The position numbers were made by a program, and so were the translations under genes. A stretch of 35,401 bases of DNA from positions 1-35,401 of the forward strand of contig WFWG01000356.1 in the NCBI GenBank assembly GCA_015491235.1. Direction: 5' to 3'. Source of the DNA: Ardenticatenaceae bacterium. Its GTDB lineage: Bacteria; Chloroflexota; Anaerolineae; Ardenticatenales; Ardenticatenaceae. Below the pieces are notes generated by a model. It was given only the letters and a program-made list of their open reading frames with translations, had not been told where the DNA came from and did not search any database. Shown here one piece after another: positions 4,603 through 35,401 of this stretch (its first letter is position 1; each line of letters begins with the position of its first letter).

Positions 4603-7600
4603 CTAATGCCCAACGGTGAAAAAGGGGTCGCCATAGAAGAGATAGCTGGCCCACGTCAGGTCGCTCCACCCCACCTGCTCAAAAAGGTGAGAGCGGGCCC
4701 GGTGCACGGCCACCCCTAACGGCGCTCCGCCGAAGAACTCGCCATAGAAGACGCGCGCAAAAGTTTGGGCCGCTTCGTCCCTGATGTTCCAGAAGGTAGC
4801 CAGCACGTTGCGGCTGCCAGCCGCAATGCTGGCGTCGGCCAGGCCCGTGGCCCAGGTGTGAGCCCGCTCCCAAGTCGTGGACTGGCGTCCGCTCTCGCAG
4901 GCGTTGAGGAAGAGGAGCAACGGGGGAATGCTCAGGCCAGCCAAATTTTGAGCTGTGATGTAGTGTTCCCCATTTCGGTCCAGCAGCAGCCGGCTCAGAG
5001 CCGGCGCCTGTTCGTCATAGAGGGCATGGCCCGCAAAGTGAACGATGTGGTGCCGGGGGAACTCGGCCAGGAGGTCGAGCGCGCTGCCGTCCGGCGACAT
5101 GTGCCAGCGGGTGACTTCCACGTGTGGGAGTTCGGCCACTGCGGCCTCTATTGCTTGAGCCTCCGCTTCGGCCCAGGGCAGGTCGCCCGTCGGGTTGGCC
5201 ACGATCAGCAGGCGCAACTTGCTCTCGCCACGCGCAAGGGGCAGCGCCGTTCCCCGCACGACTTCGGTCACGAGGCGCCGGGCCGTAGGTCGGGCCAGTG
5301 CCAGCGGTTTGTCCGGGATGGGCAACAACTCCCAGGGCACCCCGGCAGTCTCCCTGTCGAGACGCCAGGTGAGCGCCGCATCGTCGGGCAATTCGGCCAG
5401 CATTTCCCGCACAGGGGGCGGCAAAAGGGCATCTCGCAGTGCTGCCAGGCGTTGTTGTGCTTGCTCGGCCAAGGTGCCGGGCTCAGTTGTTTCCTGAGAA
5501 GCGCGGGCCAGGTCGTCCACAGCGCGCAGAAAAGCTCGATACTGGGTCGGGTCACGGGGAACGGTCGTGCGCGGCTCGCCCGCCAGCACAGTAGGCGCCA
5601 TGTACGTGAAGTCCACCGTTCGGCCATCAGGCGACACCAGCACGCTCAGGTATGCCCCCTGCAGCGGCGAAGGAGAACTCTTGGCCGGTGAAAGCAACAC
5701 TTCTGGGCGTTCGAGGCGCCGACGCAGGCGTGTTAGGCGCTGGGCCTGCCCGGTTTCGGACGATAGGGGCTGCCCAACCCGAATTTCGAGGGGAAGGGGG
5801 CTTTCTGTGGACAAGAGGGCTGGCAGTCCGCGCTGCTCGTCGGCCAGGCGGGCAAACTTGGCCTCATCCCACTCCACCAGCCAAACGTCTGTCAAGGACG
5901 AGGCTTCCTGGGCGGCCAACTCGTCCAACAGGCCACGCATGAAGGCGTGGGCCGCTTCTTCGACTTCCAGCCCACCCCCGCCAGCGCCGTGCACGATGCT
6001 GGCCAGCGTCTGAAGGTGCAGAAGGGAGGCGGCCTGGGCCACCACCCGCCCAACCGTTTGAATCCGCTCCAGGCGAGACTTCCGTTCCACGCCAAACTCC
6101 TCAGCCGTGCCCAACCCCACGACGACGACCAAGTCGGACGGCAGCAGGTCACGAGTGGGCACGAAGAAGAGCCGGCCAGCGTGCCCCGTCAGGCTCCCTT
6201 GGGCAATGAGGGCGCTCAAGACACCTCCAAGCTTCTGGTCCACGAAGCTGGCAGCCCCGCCTACGGCTACCCCTTCCACGTGGTTGACCACAATGGCCTC
6301 CGTGCCCACATCGCCAATGGAGCCGCGCGCCAGCGTCAAGCGGAGGGGGGCCTGCCGGGGACGCACGACCGGTTCAACCGGTTCAGCAACGGCCAGGCCG
6401 CGCTCTTCCCCACCAGCTTGACCGTTGCAGCCGGGCCAGCGGGGCAACGGCTGACCAGGCGGGTAGCTGGCACGGGCGACGGCCGCGAAGTGAGTGAGCA
6501 ACTCGTCCCAGCGGGTGTCGCGAGCGAAGTCCAGCGGGCGGTAAAGTTCCGCCAGGGCGCGCGTTTGGGGCACGTCAGGGTCGAGGCCCGCTCGGGGGAA
6601 GTAGATGGAGAGGCCGTGGGCCCGAATGGGCATGTTCGTCTGGGCCCGCACAGCCTCGTTGGCGAGCACCACCGGGCCGCCGGGCTGGGCCAGTTCGGCC
6701 ACGCGGCGGGCGGCCTCGGAGATGGCCGCAGGCACATCCGGCTGCTCTGCGAGCCGGTTGACGAAGTCCACCAGGTCCAGGTAGTCGCGACTGCGATTGC
6801 GGAAGCGTTCCGCCTGCTCCCGGGCAAGGTCAACAGCCTCGAAAACCGGACGGTGGTGCAGGTTGCAGAGCAGCAAGTGGGCCAGGCGATCTACGGCCTG
6901 TACCAACGCACTCAGCCCCGCTGTGCTAATAGCCGACTGTGTAATTTCATCGTGCAGGCTGAACCGCCCCTGGTCGTGAGCTTCTCGGAAGCGGCGCACG
7001 GTGGCCCGGGCCACCGCCTCGACACCGTGGCCGGGAAGCGCTTGCACGAAGTGCTGGTAATCCCAGCCAGCGGCGGGCTCCTCGGCCTGGGAGCCGATCA
7101 CCACGCGGGCCGCCAGCCGCACCTGATAGGCCACCTCCACCATGCTCATCAAACAGGCGTCGAAGCCCAACAGGTCGAAGCGCTCCAGGCCAGCCTCCTG
7201 CAAGCCCTGGCGGAGCGCCGTAGCCAACTCCTGGTTGTCCACGAAGTCCATAGAGGTGTCGTCGTAGAGGATACCCCGCATGGTCTCGGGCTGGATGGTG
7301 GCTGTTTCGGAGAGGCGGCGCAGGGTGGCGGCGAAGAGGGCACGGTTGAAGCGGGTAGCCGCTACCGTGCTGCGCACGCGAGGGTCAGCAGCGGTAACGC
7401 GCCTGGCCGTCTCGCGCAGGGAGGCGTAAATGTCCGTGTCGTCCCACCCGTTTCCGTGGTTCCAAATGACGAGCGCGTACTTCTGGGCCGGATACGTGCG
7501 CACACCCCACCGGATGAAGTCTACCAGGTTTTGCGGGTCGCCAGTGTTGACTTCGGCCAGCACCTCGCCCACCTGGTCTTCCTCCAGCGCGCCGTCCGCC

Positions 7601-7800
7601 GTCAGGTGATAGCGCAAGGTGCCGCGATCGCCCACTGTGTCAAACTGGGCCACGACATGTAACGTAGCCCGCTTCTCTGGGGACAGACCTTGCAGGCCGC
7701 GCTTGACCTCTTCCAGATCCTGAAAACCAGCTCCCTCCAGGGAATTGTCGCCAGCCATGTAAAGCAGCACTGTCCACTCGGCTTGGGGGACTGGGGTCAT
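4603..7800 (-). CDS. Clostripain (C11) - M17N-like - CHAT double-protease protein
   Basis: This 1065-residue protein has no signal peptide or membrane segment, so it is probably cytosolic. Residues 8-440 are a clostripain-type C11 peptidase: WTVLLYMAGDNSLE at the start, His115 in VIWNHGNGWD and Cys216 in LGFDACLMS form the expected catalytic pair. Residues about 485-660 resemble the N-terminal macro-like domain of M17 leucine aminopeptidases (TEAIVVNHVEGV, DQKLGGVLSALI, VVVVGLGTAEEF) without an M17 catalytic domain. Residues about 815-1065 are a CHAT (caspase-HetF-associated) domain with the lead-in GVPWELLPIP, His925 in VHFAGHALYDE and Cys968 in FLNACESGR. Both dyads are intact. The ATG follows a GGGAGGAG site. 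It is the third gene after an LLM oxidoreductase and an M29 aminopeptidase on this strand, 83 bases behind the latter. The domain reading comes from motifs; the partner, trigger and substrates are unknown. Confidence 0.9.
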   Translation of the reverse strand: MTPVPQAEWTVLLYMAGDNSLEGAGFQDLEEVKRGLQGLSPEKRATLHVVAQFDTVGDRGTLRYHLTADGALEEDQVGEVLAEVNTGDPQNLVDFIRWGVRTYPAQKYALVIWNHGNGWDDTDIYASLRETARRVTAADPRVRSTVAATRFNRALFAATLRRLSETATIQPETMRGILYDDTSMDFVDNQELATALRQGLQEAGLERFDLLGFDACLMSMVEVAYQVRLAARVVIGSQAEEPAAGWDYQHFVQALPGHGVEAVARATVRRFREAHDQGRFSLHDEITQSAISTAGLSALVQAVDRLAHLLLCNLHHRPVFEAVDLAREQAERFRNRSRDYLDLVDFVNRLAEQPDVPAAISEAARRVAELAQPGGPVVLANEAVRAQTNMPIRAHGLSIYFPRAGLDPDVPQTRALAELYRPLDFARDTRWDELLTHFAAVARASYPPGQPLPRWPGCNGQAGGEERGLAVAEPVEPVVRPRQAPLRLTLARGSIGDVGTEAIVVNHVEGVAVGGAASFVDQKLGGVLSALIAQGSLTGHAGRLFFVPTRDLLPSDLVVVVGLGTAEEFGVERKSRLERIQTVGRVVAQAASLLHLQTLASIVHGAGGGGLEVEEAAHAFMRGLLDELAAQEASSLTDVWLVEWDEAKFARLADEQRGLPALLSTESPLPLEIRVGQPLSSETGQAQRLTRLRRRLERPEVLLSPAKSSPSPLQGAYLSVLVSPDGRTVDFTYMAPTVLAGEPRTTVPRDPTQYRAFLRAVDDLARASQETTEPGTLAEQAQQRLAALRDALLPPPVREMLAELPDDAALTWRLDRETAGVPWELLPIPDKPLALARPTARRLVTEVVRGTALPLARGESKLRLLIVANPTGDLPWAEAEAQAIEAAVAELPHVEVTRWHMSPDGSALDLLAEFPRHHIVHFAGHALYDEQAPALSRLLLDRNGEHYITAQNLAGLSIPPLLLFLNACESGRQSTTWERAHTWATGLADASIAAGSRNVLATFWNIRDEAAQTFARVFYGEFFGGAPLGVAVHRARSHLFEQVGWSDLTWASYLFYGDPFFTVGH

Positions 7801-7883
7801 GGGCCTCTCCTCCCGGGGAACAGGACGCCCTTTCCGCCGCCAACGGAAAAGCGCAACAGGTCACACATGGCCAACCACCGCGC

Positions 7884-9017
7884 TCACGCCTCCTGCTTGG
7901 CCACCTCGCGTTCCCACAGCACGAACTGACCGTCCTTCTGGAACAACTCCCCGTCCACGTAGACTTCGCCACCCTGACGCAGGTCACACACCAGGTCCCA
8001 GTGAATTGCCGAGATGTTTTGTCCACCCGTCTCGGGGTAACTGCGCCCCAACGCCATGTGAATCGTGCCGCCGATCTTCTCGTCAAAGAGGGTATTGCGC
8101 ATGAAGCGCTGGATGTTGTAGTTGGTGCCGAAGGCGAACTCGCCCACGTACCGTGCCCCAGCGTCCGTGTCCAACATTTTGAGCAGGAACTCCTGGTTGT
8201 GGGAGGCTTCGGCCTTCACGACGCGACCGTTCTCGAACCAGAGGCGCACGTCGCGCACCTCGCGCCCGTTGTGGACAGCCGGGAAGGTGAAGGTGATGTA
8301 ACCGTTCACCTGATCTTCCACAGGGCCGGTGAACACTTCACCGCCGGGGAAGTTTTTCTCGCCCCTGTCGTTGATCCATGTGCGACCGTTGACACCCACG
8401 CGCAGGTCGGTGTCCGGCCCTTTAATGTGCACCTCCCGCGCCTCCTGAAGCGCCTCGATGAGCACCTCCTGGCGTTGGGCTTGCTCTTGCCAGCGGCCAA
8501 TGGGATTCTCTTCGTTCAGGAAGCAGGCCTCGAAAATGAACTCAGCTAACTCGACCAGTCCCATCTCCGCGTCCTGTGCGTAGGCAGGTGTGGGGAAGAG
8601 CGTCAGGCTCCACAACAGGTCGCCGGAGGCAGCACGGTTCATGAAGAGCTCGGAGAGGGGCTGGCGGGCTCGCTGGAGGCGCACCGTCTTCTGGGGGTCC
8701 ACGTTTGTCAGTGAACGCGTGTTATCTTCGCTCAGGATGTGAAACACCACGTCCATGTGCTGGTATTCCAGGTGAGCCAGCTCGGGCAACCGGTCGAGCA
8801 CGCTGTCGGGCGCGTAGCGGTAGAAATACTCGTTCATGAGAGGGGGCGAGAGGCGCACGTGGGGGATCGCCTCCCGCTCCAGCACCGCGCGAGCCAGTTC
8901 CAACACGAGGGGCTCGGCCAGCGTGGTTCCCCGTATGACGACTTCGTGTCCGGGTTGAACCGGCGCGCTGTATTCCACGAGCACGTCAGCCCACTTTCGG
9001 ATTCTTGCGTCGTACAT
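7884..9017 (-). CDS. M29-family aminopeptidase (thermophilic aminopeptidase / AmpS-like)
   Basis: This 377-residue metallo-aminopeptidase of the M29 family removes N-terminal residues from peptides using two metal ions. The length is slightly below the usual 400-415. The family core is present: NFPGGEVFTGP (Glu227), VGEFAFGTN (Glu293), DEKIGGTIHMALG (His320) and SAIHWDLV (His339, Asp341), which supply the likely metal ligands; the 66-residue gap between the two glutamates fits the family. The N-terminal half (VLVEYSAPVQPGHEVVIRG) is also typical. It starts 15 bases after the LLM oxidoreductase stop, so the two are almost certainly cotranscribed, with the C11/CHAT gene following. There is no export signal. 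Confidence 0.92.
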   Translation of the reverse strand: MYDARIRKWADVLVEYSAPVQPGHEVVIRGTTLAEPLVLELARAVLEREAIPHVRLSPPLMNEYFYRYAPDSVLDRLPELAHLEYQHMDVVFHILSEDNTRSLTNVDPQKTVRLQRARQPLSELFMNRAASGDLLWSLTLFPTPAYAQDAEMGLVELAEFIFEACFLNEENPIGRWQEQAQRQEVLIEALQEAREVHIKGPDTDLRVGVNGRTWINDRGEKNFPGGEVFTGPVEDQVNGYITFTFPAVHNGREVRDVRLWFENGRVVKAEASHNQEFLLKMLDTDAGARYVGEFAFGTNYNIQRFMRNTLFDEKIGGTIHMALGRSYPETGGQNISAIHWDLVCDLRQGGEVYVDGELFQKDGQFVLWEREVAKQEA

Positions 9018-9032
9018 GTCTGCCCCCTTACA

Positions 9033-10052
9033 TCATTGGTTTTCCTTGAACGCACGCACCGTTTCACGCCAGAAGTCCTCGTCACCTTCCAGGAAGGCGG
9101 CGTAATACGTGATGCGGTCGGCCAGGCCAGCGTACCGCGCTTTGACCGCCTCGGCCAACCGGTCGCGCGGGGCCACCACGGCAAAGGTCTCCAGCATTTC
9201 GTCCGTAATCAGGCGGGGCATTTCGTCCCACCGCTGGCGAGCGGCCAAGCGGCTGAGTTCTTGGGCCGTGTCGCCCCAGCCGTGAAGCTCAAGAACAGTG
9301 CGATACGTGGGCGTCGAAGCGTAAAAGGCGATTTGCTGCCGCACCGATTCACGTTCCTTTTCCATTTCGGCTTCGTCACGGCCGGTAACGACGAAGACAG
9401 TTACGCTCACAGCCACATCTTCCAAGCGACGGCCGGCCTTCCGGGCACCCGCTTCGATCCACGGGCGCACGCACTCACGCACGTAGCGGGCCGAGTTGAG
9501 CGGGTGGACGTGAAAGCCGTCCGCCACCTCGCCGGCCAGGCGACATAGGCCCTCGTTGACGCCCGCGATGTAGATGGGGATGTCCGGGTAGTCAATGGGA
9601 CCAGGGTTGAAAAAGGGGCTCATCAGGGTGAACTTGTAGAACTTGCCGCGGAAGTTGAGGCGCTCCCCTGTCTGCCAGGAGCGCCAAATGGCTCGCAGGG
9701 CATGAATGTACTCGCGCAGCATGGGCACGGGCGGCCCCCACGGCATCGAGAAGCGACGCTCGATGTGGGCCTTGACCTGTGTGCCCAACCCCAGGATGAA
9801 GCGTCCCTGGCTGAACTGAGCCAGGTCCCAGGCCTGGTAGGCGGTGTCCATAGGGCTGCGGGCAAAGGCCACGGCGATGGAGGTGCCCAATTCAATCCGG
9901 CGGGTGTGTTCGGCTGCCAGCACGAGGGGAAACATGGGGTTGTGCTGCGTTTCGCTGGTCCACAGGCCGTCGAAGCCGATCTCTTCCGCTTTGCGGGCTG
10001 CTGGAATGATCTGATCCAACGTGGGGGCTAAGAGCGCCGTGTCAATCTTCAT
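9033..10052 (-). CDS. LLM class F420-dependent oxidoreductase (TIGR03617-like)
   Basis: This 339-residue luciferase-like TIM-barrel protein resembles the TIGR03617 (MSMEG_2256-type) group of probable coenzyme F420-dependent oxidoreductases. Visible features are the early IGFDGLWTSETQHNPMF segment, GTSIAVAFARSPM, the ILGLGTQVKAHIERRF stretch that usually contacts the cofactor, and IPIYIAGVNEGL before the AGEVADGFHVHPL segment. The substrate is unknown. A good ribosome binding site (AAGAAGGAG) precedes the ATG. It is the first gene of the minus-strand operon with the M29 aminopeptidase and the C11/CHAT protein, and it is divergent from the DUF169 gene. The assignment of F420 rather than FMN is by family resemblance only. 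Confidence 0.9.
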   Translation of the reverse strand: MKIDTALLAPTLDQIIPAARKAEEIGFDGLWTSETQHNPMFPLVLAAEHTRRIELGTSIAVAFARSPMDTAYQAWDLAQFSQGRFILGLGTQVKAHIERRFSMPWGPPVPMLREYIHALRAIWRSWQTGERLNFRGKFYKFTLMSPFFNPGPIDYPDIPIYIAGVNEGLCRLAGEVADGFHVHPLNSARYVRECVRPWIEAGARKAGRRLEDVAVSVTVFVVTGRDEAEMEKERESVRQQIAFYASTPTYRTVLELHGWGDTAQELSRLAARQRWDEMPRLITDEMLETFAVVAPRDRLAEAVKARYAGLADRITYYAAFLEGDEDFWRETVRAFKENQ

Positions 10053-10120
10053 GGTCGTGCTCCTTCTTCGCTCTTCTTTGAGGTGGATTTCAGGTTGCTA
10101 CGACGGGCAAATCTGACACG

Positions 10121-10150
10121 TTGTCCGAGTTCGACGTATGAGTGTATAAT
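10121..10150 (+). promoter_or_regulatory. Promoter for the DUF169 gene
   Basis: A perfect TATAAT -10 lies at 10145-10150 with TTGTCC at 10121-10126 (18-base spacer). It sits in the 136-base divergent region between the LLM oxidoreductase and DUF169 genes. Transcription would start about 32 bases before the DUF169 ATG, with GAGCGGAGGA as ribosome binding site. Confidence 0.6.
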
Positions 10151-10188
10151 AAAAAGCGCCAAAAGCCAATTCGAGCGGAGGAAGCCCC

Positions 10189-10998
10189 ATGACTCGACCA
10201 GAAATACTGGATACTTTCGAGCAGGCCATCGCCAAGCACATTCGGCCAGCCACCTTTCCCGTGGCCGTGCGCATGATGCCACCCGGTGAACCGCTCCCGC
10301 CGAAAGTCAAACGGCCCTGGCAAGACTTGGGCATCAAAGTAGCCATTTGCCAGGCAGTGGCCTTCGCCCGCCGCTACGGGTGGGCTATGGCGGTGGGAGC
10401 CGAAGACCTCTCGTGCCCCCTCGCCAAAGCAGTTTTCGGCTTTGCCCCCATGCTGGACTATTACGAGGAAGGCCACGCCTGCGCTGGCATGTACACGGCT
10501 ACCCCGGAGGCTGGCGCGGCCACTGAAGCTGCTGTGGCGCGCTTCCCTTACGGGGAGTATGAGTACCTCCTGGCAGCCCCTTTGCACCGCACCACCTTCG
10601 AGCCCGACGTTATCGTCATCTACGGCAACTCGGCGCAGGTCATGCGGCTCGTCACAGCGGCGCTCTGGAAGACGGGGGGACGGCTCACCTCCAGCTTCTC
10701 AGGTCGCATTGATTGCTCCGACAGTGTGATTGTGCCACGGCAAAGCCAAAAGCCGGAAGTTATTTTGCCCTGTTACGGCGACCGGGTGTTCGCCCAAACG
10801 CAAGACGACGAGATGGCCTTCTCCTTGCCGGCCTCGTGGATGGCCGACTTGATCGAGGGACTGGAGGGTACGCACAAGGGTGGCATCCGGTATCCGATTC
10901 CCAACTGGCTCCGGTACACGGGTCGGTTTCCGGCTCACTACGAGAAGATGAACGAGTTGTGGGCGCAAATGGAAAAGCAGCCGGAAGAGGAACCGTGA
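10189..10998 (+). CDS. DUF169 domain-containing protein
   Basis: This 269-residue soluble protein belongs to the DUF169 family (ArCR-like), which has conserved cysteines but no settled function. It shows the expected early PVAVRMMPPGE segment, a first cysteine in KVAICQAVAFARRYG, AEDLSCPLAKAVFGF, HACAGMY, and later the IYGNSAQVMRLV and FSGRIDCSDSVI stretches. The cysteine set could bind a metal or cofactor, but this is inference. It has its own TATAAT promoter and is transcribed alone, divergent from the LLM oxidoreductase operon and convergent with the HTH regulator that follows. The last residues are Glu/Pro-rich. Confidence 0.85.
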   Translation: MTRPEILDTFEQAIAKHIRPATFPVAVRMMPPGEPLPPKVKRPWQDLGIKVAICQAVAFARRYGWAMAVGAEDLSCPLAKAVFGFAPMLDYYEEGHACAGMYTATPEAGAATEAAVARFPYGEYEYLLAAPLHRTTFEPDVIVIYGNSAQVMRLVTAALWKTGGRLTSSFSGRIDCSDSVIVPRQSQKPEVILPCYGDRVFAQTQDDEMAFSLPASWMADLIEGLEGTHKGGIRYPIPNWLRYTGRFPAHYEKMNELWAQMEKQPEEEP

Positions 10999-11010
10999 GC
11001 CTTTTCACCC

Positions 11011-11598
11011 TCATTCGCGGGAAACAGCTTCGTAGCCTTCGATAGTGCCCAGGAGCACTTCGTTGAGAAAGCGGTCAATACGGCTGTGCAGGCGCTGCAA
11101 CTCGATTTCGTCTCCAGGGCGGGGAAAGGAGGGCATTTGAAGCGCCATTGACGTGATTTGCGTGCGGAAGAAGAGGAAGGCCTCGACTGTCTCCAGCAGC
11201 GAGAGCCCAACCTGCCCTATCGTTTGGCCGTACGATCGGCCAACCAGGCGTCCCTCCTGGAGGAAGCGTTCGTCGTCGTTCTGGCGAGTGATGTATTGCA
11301 ACAGAAGGCCCAAGAGGCGCTGGCCGAGCACCCGCACGTGCTGACGCTGGCGTTCGTCGAAAGCGGTACTCCACGATTGCGTGTCCGGGGTCACGGGCGA
11401 GACAGGAGAAGGCGGATGTGGCGGCTCCGTTTCCTGGCGCTGCAAGTAGGCCTCCAGTGCTTGGCGATGGAAGCGGCGATGTCCGCCTGGCGTCCGCGTG
11501 AAGGGAATTTTACCTTCGTCGCTCCACCGCCGCAGCGTCGAGGGATGAACGCCCAGGAGTTCACTTGCTTCTCGCAGGGTTAACCACTCTTTCGACAT
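11011..11598 (-). CDS. MerR/excisionase-type helix-turn-helix regulator
   Basis: From the start chosen here the protein is 195 residues. Residues about 4-50 form a MerR/excisionase-like winged helix (LTLREASELLGVHPSTLRRW, DEGKIPFTRTPGGHRRF), which binds DNA. A Pro-rich linker (about 55-75) leads to an all-helical C-terminal domain (LLGLLLQYITRQNDDERFL, SLLETVEAFLFFRTQI, RFLNEVLLGTIEGYEA) that resembles the RsbRD-N-like helical sensor regions found in similar regulators; this likeness is tentative. An alternative ATG ten codons upstream (11628) is in frame. It converges on the DUF169 gene with 12 bases between stops. Its upstream region carries repeat B1. Confidence 0.78.
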   Translation of the reverse strand: MSKEWLTLREASELLGVHPSTLRRWSDEGKIPFTRTPGGHRRFHRQALEAYLQRQETEPPHPPSPVSPVTPDTQSWSTAFDERQRQHVRVLGQRLLGLLLQYITRQNDDERFLQEGRLVGRSYGQTIGQVGLSLLETVEAFLFFRTQITSMALQMPSFPRPGDEIELQRLHSRIDRFLNEVLLGTIEGYEAVSRE

Positions 11599-33171: not shown

Positions 33172-33260
33172 GCCGGGAGTCCGCTTAGCCTGGAAGAACC
33201 TCATCGTTGTGGGAGCACTTTAGGGCGTATCTTCCACCGACGAGCCACGCGCCTGAAGGG

Positions 33261-33289
33261 TTGACATCCACCTTTTGGGGTGTTATCCT
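33261..33289 (+). promoter_or_regulatory. Extended -10 promoter of the MBL-fold gene
   Basis: TTGACA (33261-33266) is followed after 17 bases by TATCCT (33284-33289), with TGT directly upstream of it as an extended -10. Transcription would begin near 33296, after the in-frame start at 33207, which supports the start at 33342. Confidence 0.65.
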
Positions 33290-33341
33290 CAAAACAGAGG
33301 TGGCTTTTGTTCAAAATGACCGGCACTTCGAGCACGGAGAG

Positions 33342-34199
33342 ATGCGGCGAGAGCGAATTTCCGAGGACATCCACATCTTCACGAGCGAACTGTACGCTCA
33401 TGTGACGGCCACGGTCATCTTCACTGACGAGGGGGCGATCGTCGTTGACACGTTGCCCTTCCCGGCCGAAAGCCGGGAGATGGCCGAGTTCGTCCGCGCC
33501 CACAGTCCCCGGGGAGTGCGCTTCGTCATCAACACCCACTTCCACGCTGATCATGTCTACGGCAACTACCTGTTTCGCGATGCCGCCATCATCGCTCACC
33601 GCCAGTGCCGGCAGAAGCTGCTCGAAATCGGCGAGGAATCCCTGAAAGCCGCCAAGGCCGAGACACCGGGGTTGGAAGAGGTGGAACTGGTGTTGCCCAC
33701 CATCGTCTTCGACCACGAGATGGGCCTGCGCCTGGGACACCGCCTGCTGCGTCTCATTCACCTGCCCGGCCACACTGAGGACGGCATCGGCGTGTTGGTG
33801 GAGGGCGACCGCATCCTGATTGCGGGCGACGCTGTCATGCCGCTGCCCTACTTCGCCTGGGGCGACCGGCTGCAACTGCGCCACTCCCTGCAACGGGTCC
33901 GCGAGATGAACTTGGAAAGCATCATCCAGGGACACGGTGATGTGCTCCTACGGGGCGAGATTCCCGAAGTGCTGGACCGTCACATTCACTACCTGGACTG
34001 CATCAGGGACTACGTGGCCGAAGTCGTCAGCCAGGGGAAGCCCCGCAGTGTGCTGAAGAGCTCCCTTCCCGAGGAGTGCGGTGAGAGCAGCATCCCGTTG
34101 GACGGGCTGGTGCGCCAGCTTCACTACGCCAACCTGTTGCGGCTCTACGAGGACATGACCGACCAGCGATCCATTGAGGCTATCCTGGCTTCGGCGTGA
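33342..34199 (+). CDS. MBL-fold metallo-hydrolase
   Basis: This 285-residue protein has the complete metallo-beta-lactamase fold: THFHADH (His66, His68, Asp70, His71), LPGHTEDG (His144), AGDAVMP (Asp163) and QGHGDV (His198) supply both metal sites. Wording such as LIHLPGHTEDGIGVLVEGDRI-like strands matches the glyoxalase II/quinoprotein-relay-like hydrolases. The substrate cannot be told. The start at 33342 has GGAGAG upstream and lies after the promoter; the reading frame is open from 33207. It is transcribed alone, ahead of the T-box leader. Confidence 0.88.
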   Translation: MRRERISEDIHIFTSELYAHVTATVIFTDEGAIVVDTLPFPAESREMAEFVRAHSPRGVRFVINTHFHADHVYGNYLFRDAAIIAHRQCRQKLLEIGEESLKAAKAETPGLEEVELVLPTIVFDHEMGLRLGHRLLRLIHLPGHTEDGIGVLVEGDRILIAGDAVMPLPYFAWGDRLQLRHSLQRVREMNLESIIQGHGDVLLRGEIPEVLDRHIHYLDCIRDYVAEVVSQGKPRSVLKSSLPEECGESSIPLDGLVRQLHYANLLRLYEDMTDQRSIEAILASA

Positions 34200-34219: not shown

Positions 34220-34248
34220 TTGACAACAGCGCGCGGATTTGCTACATT
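34220..34248 (+). promoter_or_regulatory. Promoter of the T-box leader
   Basis: TTGACA at 34220-34225 and TACATT at 34243-34248 are separated by 17 bases. Transcription would begin near 34255, about 325 bases before the alaX-type start codon, leaving room for a full T-box. Confidence 0.7.
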
Positions 34249-34254
34249 TAGTTG

Positions 34255-34559
34255 ACTCGCACTTTCCAGCCGAAAAGCCCAAAGGCGACGACGGAAACGA
34301 GTAGGTGCAAAACGGCACGTCAGCGAGCCGGGGACGGTGGAAGCCCGGTGTGCACGCTGCACCGAAAATCCTTCCCGAGCCGCCACCCGAACCGCCGGAC
34401 TGCGTGGCCTGGCGCAGTAGGCGTGGCCGGGGTTCGCCGCCCGTTACCAACGGCGCGGGAGTGATGGCTCCCGTCAGGAGGGGCCCGCTCAGGCGGGCAA
34501 CGAGGGTGGTACCGCGGGCACACAGCGCCCGTCCCTTGGTGGGGCGGGCGCTTCTGTTT
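34255..34559 (+). promoter_or_regulatory. T-box riboswitch leader (specifier aligns as ATC)
   Basis: A T-box senses uncharged tRNA and lets transcription continue when it is bound. The stem I AGTA motif is at 34300-34303; GGTGCA (34304-34309) pairs with TGCACC (34358-34363); the distal loop reads GAGCCGGGGACGGTGGAAGC. After GAAA (34364-34367) the specifier position holds ATC (34368-34370), followed by CTTCCCGAG; this aligns base for base with the Bacillus glyQS loop (GAAA, GGC, A, TTCTTGAG). The T-box core GAGGGTGGTACCGCGG is at 34502-34517; its TGGT bulge would pair with a tRNA ending in ACCA. The terminator is at 34525-34559. The T-box call is firm; the specifier reading is by hand. Confidence 0.9.
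34525..34559 (+). terminator. T-box-controlled terminator
   Basis: GCGCCCGTCCC (34525-34535) pairs with GGGGCGGGCGC (34541-34551), with one G-T pair and a TTGGT loop, followed by TTCTGTTT. It overlaps the region that would otherwise form the antiterminator, as in other T-boxes. Confidence 0.8.
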
Positions 34560-34577
34560 GGAAAAGGAGGGAACACG

Positions 34578-35297
34578 ATGACCGAGTTGCTTTACATGAC
34601 GGACAGTTACTTGCGCGAGTTCGACGCCACCGTAACGGCCACCCACCCGGAGGGTGTGGTGCTCGACCGCACGGCCTTTTACCCCGGCGGAGGCGGCCAG
34701 CCGCCCGACACCGGCCTTCTCCGCGCTCCGGACGGCACCACCTACCGCGTGACCGGCCTCAAGCGAGCCGGCGGCCAGATCGTCCACCTGCTCGAGGGCG
34801 AAGCGCGCCCCGCCGTGGGCACGCCCGTTCACGGCCTGCTCGACTGGGACCGCCGCTACCTGCTCATGCGCACCCACACGGCGATGCACATCCTCTGTGG
34901 TGTGGTGTGGCGCGACTACGGTGCCCAAGTGACCGGCGGAAACATGCAGCCGGGTCGGGGGCGCATGGACTTCGAGTTCGAGCGAATGCAGAAGGAGTTG
35001 GTGCAGGAGATCGAGGAGAAAATCAACGCCGAGGTGGAGGCTGCCCGCCCCGTGCGCGTGCGCATTTTGCCGCGCGAGGAAGCTTTCCAGATCCCCGACC
35101 TCATTCGCACCAAGATCAACCTGCTGCCGCCCCACATTCAGGAAGTGCGGGTGGTGGAAATCGTGGGGCTCGACTTGCAGGCTGACGGCGGCACCCATGT
35201 GGCCAACACGCGCGAAGTGGGGCGCATTCGCATCGTAGACTACAAGAGCAAGGGGCGCATCAACAAGCGCCTCGTCGTTGCCCTGGACGAGGAGTGA
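34578..35297 (+). CDS. Alanyl-tRNA editing protein AlaX-type
   Basis: This 239-residue protein resembles free-standing AlaX, which removes wrong amino acids (Ser or Gly) from tRNA-Ala. It has the AlaRS-like lead-in LDRTAFYPGGGGQPPDTG, the zinc motif HTAMH (His100, His104) and a second zinc motif where Cys is replaced by Asp: QADGGTHV (Asp203, His207) in place of CGGTH. This Asp form occurs in some other AlaX proteins, as I recall. The ATG has AAAAGGAGGG upstream; the long open frame from 34305 is the T-box leader. A T-box controls it, which ties it to aminoacyl-tRNA supply. Confidence 0.9.
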   Translation: MTELLYMTDSYLREFDATVTATHPEGVVLDRTAFYPGGGGQPPDTGLLRAPDGTTYRVTGLKRAGGQIVHLLEGEARPAVGTPVHGLLDWDRRYLLMRTHTAMHILCGVVWRDYGAQVTGGNMQPGRGRMDFEFERMQKELVQEIEEKINAEVEAARPVRVRILPREEAFQIPDLIRTKINLLPPHIQEVRVVEIVGLDLQADGGTHVANTREVGRIRIVDYKSKGRINKRLVVALDEE

Positions 35298-35301
35298 GAG
35301 C

Positions 35302-35401
35302 ATGGCCTCAATTCACCCGCCTCGTCCAGGGGAGCATCCACGGGCCACAGGCCAATATCACATCGTTGGCCCAAAGGTTGATGCGCTCGAAGAGTGGGAG
35401 C
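35302..35401 (+). CDS. Start of an unidentified gene, cut by the window edge
   Basis: An ATG at 35302, four bases after the AlaX-type stop and preceded by GAGGAGTGAG, opens a frame that runs to the window end. The first 33 residues (MASIHPPRPGEHPRAT..., GQYHIVGPKVDALEEWE) match no family I recognise. Close coupling suggests it is in the same T-box-controlled transcript. Confidence 0.55.
   Translation, partial: MASIHPPRPGEHPRATGQYHIVGPKVDALEEWE

Follow-up and report, generated by a model that had tools for sequence, protein, structure and literature searches.

A predicted isoleucine T-box leader ahead of alaX very probably governs an alaX-ileS operon in an Ardenticatenaceae bacterium

We analysed a 35,401-nucleotide stretch of DNA (hereafter the window) from an Ardenticatenaceae bacterium, the end of which is also the end of its contig, C356. 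Close to that end lies alaX (34578-35297, forward strand), which encodes a 239-residue AlaX-M editing protein. A gene upstream on the same strand (33207-34199) encodes a metallo-beta-lactamase-fold hydrolase (PF00753). Between the two, a promoter-like site, TTGACA-17-TACATT, is found on the forward strand at 34220-34248, with 10 of 12 matches; it is the only one found, against a mean of 0.0 (sd 0.2) in shuffled sequences. It is followed on the same strand by a T-box leader reaching from Stem I to the antiterminator (34279-34539), which cmscan aligned over the full length of RF00230 (model positions 1-219) at 85.3 bits and an E-value of 3.3e-19. Downstream of alaX, a second forward-strand gene starts at 35302 and is cut by the contig end at 35401.

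The elements of the leader, all on the forward strand, were placed by the cmscan alignment together with an automatic register. The 5' strand of Stem Ib, GGAA (34293-34296), pairs with UUCC (34372-34375), and the specifier codon is AUC, for isoleucine, at 34368-34370. In the alignment the S-turn strands AGUA (34300-34303) and GAA (34364-34366) are present, and the 3' side of the specifier loop reads GAA-A-AUC-C, after which UUCC follows. The bulge of the antiterminator, UGGU (34507-34510), is predicted from the alignment, the register and the discriminator bases of the genome's own tRNAs to partner the A73-CCA end of a tRNA. An intrinsic terminator that excludes the antiterminator spans 34524-34552, with 12 pairs, 10 of them G-C, followed by TCTGTTT; folding of 34500-34565 forms this terminator (z -2.6). 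The leader therefore combines a UGGN-bulge antiterminator and a competing terminator with a Stem I specifier loop that has an S-turn and a codon, AUC, matching ileS, the synthetase gene of the operon described below.

The score of this leader falls short of the RF00230 gathering score of 93, so that an Rfam scan of the window at the gathering score does not list the T-box; a scan at the E-value level does. The same holds for the whole genome: none of its seven T-boxes rises above the gathering score, which by itself counts against our reading of the leader, and the other six nonetheless precede the genes expected of them. Since all seven miss the mark, we treat the RF00230 threshold rather than the element as being at fault for this GC-rich lineage, and the score as a curation threshold and no defining trait.

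The six other T-boxes also provide an internal control for the specifier register. At the same position they carry GUC, UGG, UCC, UUC, ACC and CUC, which fit the downstream valS, trpE, serS, pheS, thrS and leuS, respectively. The automatic rule agrees for valS, trpE, serS and leuS; it failed on pheS and thrS, and the codons of these two were therefore taken from the cmscan alignment. In addition, the last base of the UGGN bulge tracks base 73 of the genome's own tRNAs, as read by hand from the predicted tRNA ends. The serS and trpE leaders have UGGC, with G73 in tRNA-Ser and tRNA-Trp; the thrS leader has UGGA, with U73 in tRNA-Thr; and the valS, leuS and pheS leaders have UGGU, with A73 in the cognate tRNAs. 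This agrees with the earlier note, which had held that the TGGT bulge suits A73 and disfavours tRNA-Ser with its G73. The U in the bulge of the alaX leader is thus predicted to suit tRNA-Ile and to exclude tRNA-Ser. Counting against our reading, tRNA-Ile is not among the own-genome tRNA loci typed by ARAGORN, which make up most of the 51 tRNA matches; it was probably lost from the assembly together with the rRNA operon.

Several of these leaders have features of their own. In the valS T-box locus (L098, contig C317) an unrelated methyltransferase gene comes first, before valS, and in the leuS T-box locus (L103, contig C405) an unrelated thioesterase gene precedes leuS. Directly ahead of the leuS T-box, contig C405 carries two tRNA-Ala genes, with anticodons CGC and GGC, at 1766-1935. 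The pheS T-box (L005, contig C105) lacks the usual AGUA and GAA S-turn strands of the specifier loop.

We compared the leader with those of relatives, namely 80 confirmed alaX loci that were picked by similarity as the best 80 of 554 and come mostly from Chloroflexota bins. A T-box core lies upstream of alaX in 45 of these best 80, and in one of the 45 (L022) Stem I is cut off, so that this leader was left out of the specifier count. The specifier is AUC in all 44 leaders with a complete Stem I, 43 being read by a rule without a pairing requirement and one (L096) by eye. A first automatic rule had failed on L033 and L096, which were read by eye, and on the cut leader L022. The second rule, which requires no pairing, misread L096 and misplaced the 5' anchors in L018, L039 and L069, which accounts for the failed Stem Ib pairs in these three. 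The base before the codon varies among A, G, C and T and the base after it is C or A, while the triplet AUC is constant. Stem Ib covaries in the relatives (GGAG:CTCC, GGAA:TTCC, AGAG:CTCT, GAAA:TTTC, CGAG:CTCG and GGGA:TCCC), and the UGGU bulge is found in the window and in 45/45 of the T-box leaders from the best 80 of 554.

These alignments bear on which tRNA the leader would sense. An alanine specifier was considered and rejected, as no leader that was read has GCN at the codon position. The isoleucine specifier ATC and the absence of a GCN codon, both put forward in the earlier note, are borne out by the covariance alignment, and so is its expectation for orthologous leaders, none of the 44 having an alanine specifier. 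A serine register would place the specifier one step further on, at UCC, so that the switch would sense tRNA-Ser, whose amino acid AlaX takes off tRNA-Ala. UCC does adjoin the expected place within GAAAAUCCUUCC, and UCA, also a serine codon, is at the shifted place in five relatives. Against this, the shift breaks the four-pair Stem Ib that covaries in the relatives; in the genome's own serS T-box, UCC occupies the standard register and the bulge, UGGC, fits G73 of tRNA-Ser, where the alaX leader has UGGU; and the downstream synthetase gene is ileS, not serS. We consider the serine register extremely improbable.

The genes that follow alaX are found on a second contig, C138, of this genome, the start of which overlaps the final 476 bases of the window (34926-35401) with 471 identities. 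The first bases of C138 encode the C-terminal part of AlaX-M. The gene cut at the window's end is complete there (L009:377-1021) and encodes a protein of 214 residues with no Pfam or NCBIfam match; next come a gene for an RNase H-like protein of 140 residues (L009:1025-1447) and then ileS (L009:1470-4595). In window and L009 coordinates, the gaps from alaX through the 214-residue open reading frame and the RNase H-like gene to ileS are 3 to 22 bases. The encoded IleRS reaches 984 bits on TIGR00392 and belongs to the sole ileS above the cut-off in the genome. A scan of the genome with RF00230 found no T-box on C138. The order T-box, alaX, orf, RNase H, ileS is thus put together from a contig-end overlap and not from a continuous assembly. 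The five mismatches in the overlap probably reflect strain variation that broke the assembly at this point.

The same mismatches could also mean that C138 carries a second alaX copy, or belongs to another strain, and that the join to ileS is false. We regard such an assembly accident as very unlikely. Outside C138 and the window the genome has a single AlaX-M-like stretch, which sits in an 897-residue frame that is most likely AlaRS. Two relatives have the identical gene order on single contigs. In L020, from an Ardenticatena sp. whose AlaX is 82% identical, a T-box core lies 70 bases ahead of alaX and is followed by the orf (6720-7340), the RNase H-like gene (7345-7914) and ileS (7946-11074), the T-box and all four genes being on the plus strand of one contig; the order alaX, orf, RNase H, ileS is repeated in L019. 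Contig overlap, open reading frames and relatives together place ileS inside the operon that the leader is predicted to control.

Among the best 80 of 554 relatives, 56 have ileS downstream of alaX in the same orientation. The gene follows in 41 of the 45 loci with a T-box core, and in the other four the contig stops within 2.9 kb. In thirteen of the 80, ileS is present and the pattern used finds no T-box core, which counts against our reading, and in two more with ileS the leader is too short to judge. Neither a T-box core nor ileS was found in 20 relatives, of which 12 are cut by the contig end and eight have 6 kb of downstream sequence. Two of the relatives, labelled Latescibacterota (L021) and Bacteroidetes (L056), have a Chloroflexota-like alaX, with 76% and 71% identity, pointing to mis-binning or transfer.

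The C138 continuation, L020, the 41 of 45 T-box relatives with ileS among the best 80 of 554 and the AUC in 44/44 leaders argue for an Ile-T-box of the kind usual for ileS, behind which alaX is the first gene of the operon. We are highly confident that the leader is a transcription-attenuating Ile-T-box governing an operon of alaX, the 214-residue orf, the RNase H-like gene and ileS, in which alaX would accompany ileS under the control of tRNA-Ile. The DNA itself shows the anatomy of the leader with its specifier, bulge and terminator, the short-gap gene order and the conservation of these features in relatives. From these we infer that the four genes share one transcript and that tRNA binding brings about antitermination. 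At low isoleucine, the anticodon of uncharged tRNA-Ile(GAU) would pair with the AUC of the specifier loop, and the free ACCA end of this tRNA would pair with the UGGU bulge and hold the antiterminator, so that RNA polymerase would go on to transcribe all four genes. With charged tRNA-Ile, the GC-rich terminator would form instead and transcription would stop ahead of alaX.

The earlier note had interpreted the locus as a novel link between tRNA-Ile and alaX in place of ileS. Its isoleucine specifier, its pairing of the UGGU bulge with A73, its exclusion of alanine and serine, and its AlaX assignment stand; the step from alaX being next to a cross-link does not, as the predicted operon continues beyond the contig end to ileS, and relatives have ileS behind alaX on single contigs. 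The appearance of a novel link arose mostly because the window ends where the contig does. With the rest of the operon located, specifier and operon agree and the paradox is gone. We conclude that this is an ordinary Ile-T-box plus a modestly interesting conserved alaX-ileS linkage. What remains is that, in many Chloroflexota, an alanyl-tRNA editing gene is linked to ileS under predicted control by tRNA-Ile.

To gauge this linkage we also examined 81 genomes drawn evenly from Chloroflexota, our own included, because the 80 relatives had been picked by similarity. AlaX-M was found at E <= 1e-60 in 27 of the 81. As read by hand from the match rows, ileS lies just downstream on the same contig and strand in 14 of these (G010, G011, G014, G020, G021, G023, G039, G041, G047, G048, G056, G057, G065 and G066) and elsewhere in 12; the 27th is our own genome, where ileS is downstream through the C356/C138 overlap. 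A T-box directly precedes ileS, with no alaX between them, in at least 21 genomes of the 81, likewise counted by hand. The Ile-T-box therefore belongs to ileS, and alaX is an addition in part of the phylum.

The AlaX protein itself was assigned by profile, and the editing gene proposed in the earlier note is confirmed as AlaX-M: residues 2-236 match the NF040865 equivalog profile at 304.2 bits, above its cut-off of 300, and the protein also matches AlaRS editing domains and AlaX structures. Like AlaX-M it gives a full-length profile match and keeps the HxxxH metal motif and the GGGGQP loop, with H100, H104 and H207 present. It differs in its T-box control within an ileS operon and in its second metal motif, QADGGTH, where Asp203 takes the place of Cys in 81/81 aligned AlaX sequences; Cys is at that place in 3kew, archaeal AlaRS, AlaX-S and the 9iuw chains. 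Either a lineage-specific trait of AlaX-M or a changed specificity could explain this exchange. In PMC11295145, AlaXp is described as hydrolysing Ser- or Gly-tRNA-Ala, and AlaX specificity is attributed to one Arg. By analogy with what is printed for AlaX-M, the protein would act on tRNA-Ala mis-acylated with Ser or Gly.

The IleRS encoded on C138 has close matches in Thermus IleRS (1ile) and in 8c8u and its kin, a 1032-residue IleRS that we take to be of the eukaryote-like IleRS2 type. A lost editing site of IleRS was considered as a reason for the linkage and rejected: the residues that we take to make up this site (W-TTT, N, H and D) are kept in 54/54 linked IleRS covering it, and the genome's own IleRS keeps the editing motifs, so that no compensation by AlaX is evident.

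A functional reason for placing alaX under the control of tRNA-Ile would be a role of AlaX in isoleucine decoding, such as the clearing of tRNA-Ile mis-acylated by IleRS or the protection of fidelity at low isoleucine. The linkage is kept across Chloroflexota, in 56 of the best 80 of 554 similarity-picked relatives and in 14 of the 26 other AlaX-M-bearing genomes of the even draw, alaX and ileS are sometimes only 5-20 bases apart, and the Asp at the position of the metal-binding Cys of solved AlaX and AlaRS editing domains is invariant (81/81). With the editing residues of the linked IleRS intact, however, nothing needs replacing. Passenger genes are also common, as the methyltransferase and thioesterase genes that come first after the valS and leuS T-boxes illustrate, and alaX is apart from ileS in 12 of the 27 AlaX-M genomes. 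We therefore hold this functional link to be unlikely. Equally doubtful is its more specific form, in which the Chloroflexota AlaX-M would be a working partner of IleRS, co-induced by uncharged tRNA-Ile, and, with its altered metal site, would correct an error in tRNA or amino acid that arises in connection with isoleucine decoding, beyond Ser- and Gly-tRNA-Ala. The linkage nevertheless raises a biochemical question, namely whether AlaX acts on tRNA-Ala alone.

A full-text search of open-licence literature, partly judged by title and abstract, found no mention of an alaX-ileS linkage under tRNA-Ile control, an absence that is weak evidence because only open-licence papers were covered. A T-box of the ile tRNA ligase in Chloroflexota (Dehalococcoides) is recorded in PMC2494555. 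The present leader resembles the Ile-T-box leaders of ileS in RF00230 in its Stem I with AGUA/GAA S-turn, AUC codon, UGGU bulge, terminator and control of ileS, but differs in that one to several genes, alaX first, stand between T-box and ileS. Across the even draw, 74 of the 81 genomes have an RF00230 match at E <= 1e-6, and in only 43 is a match above the cut-off.
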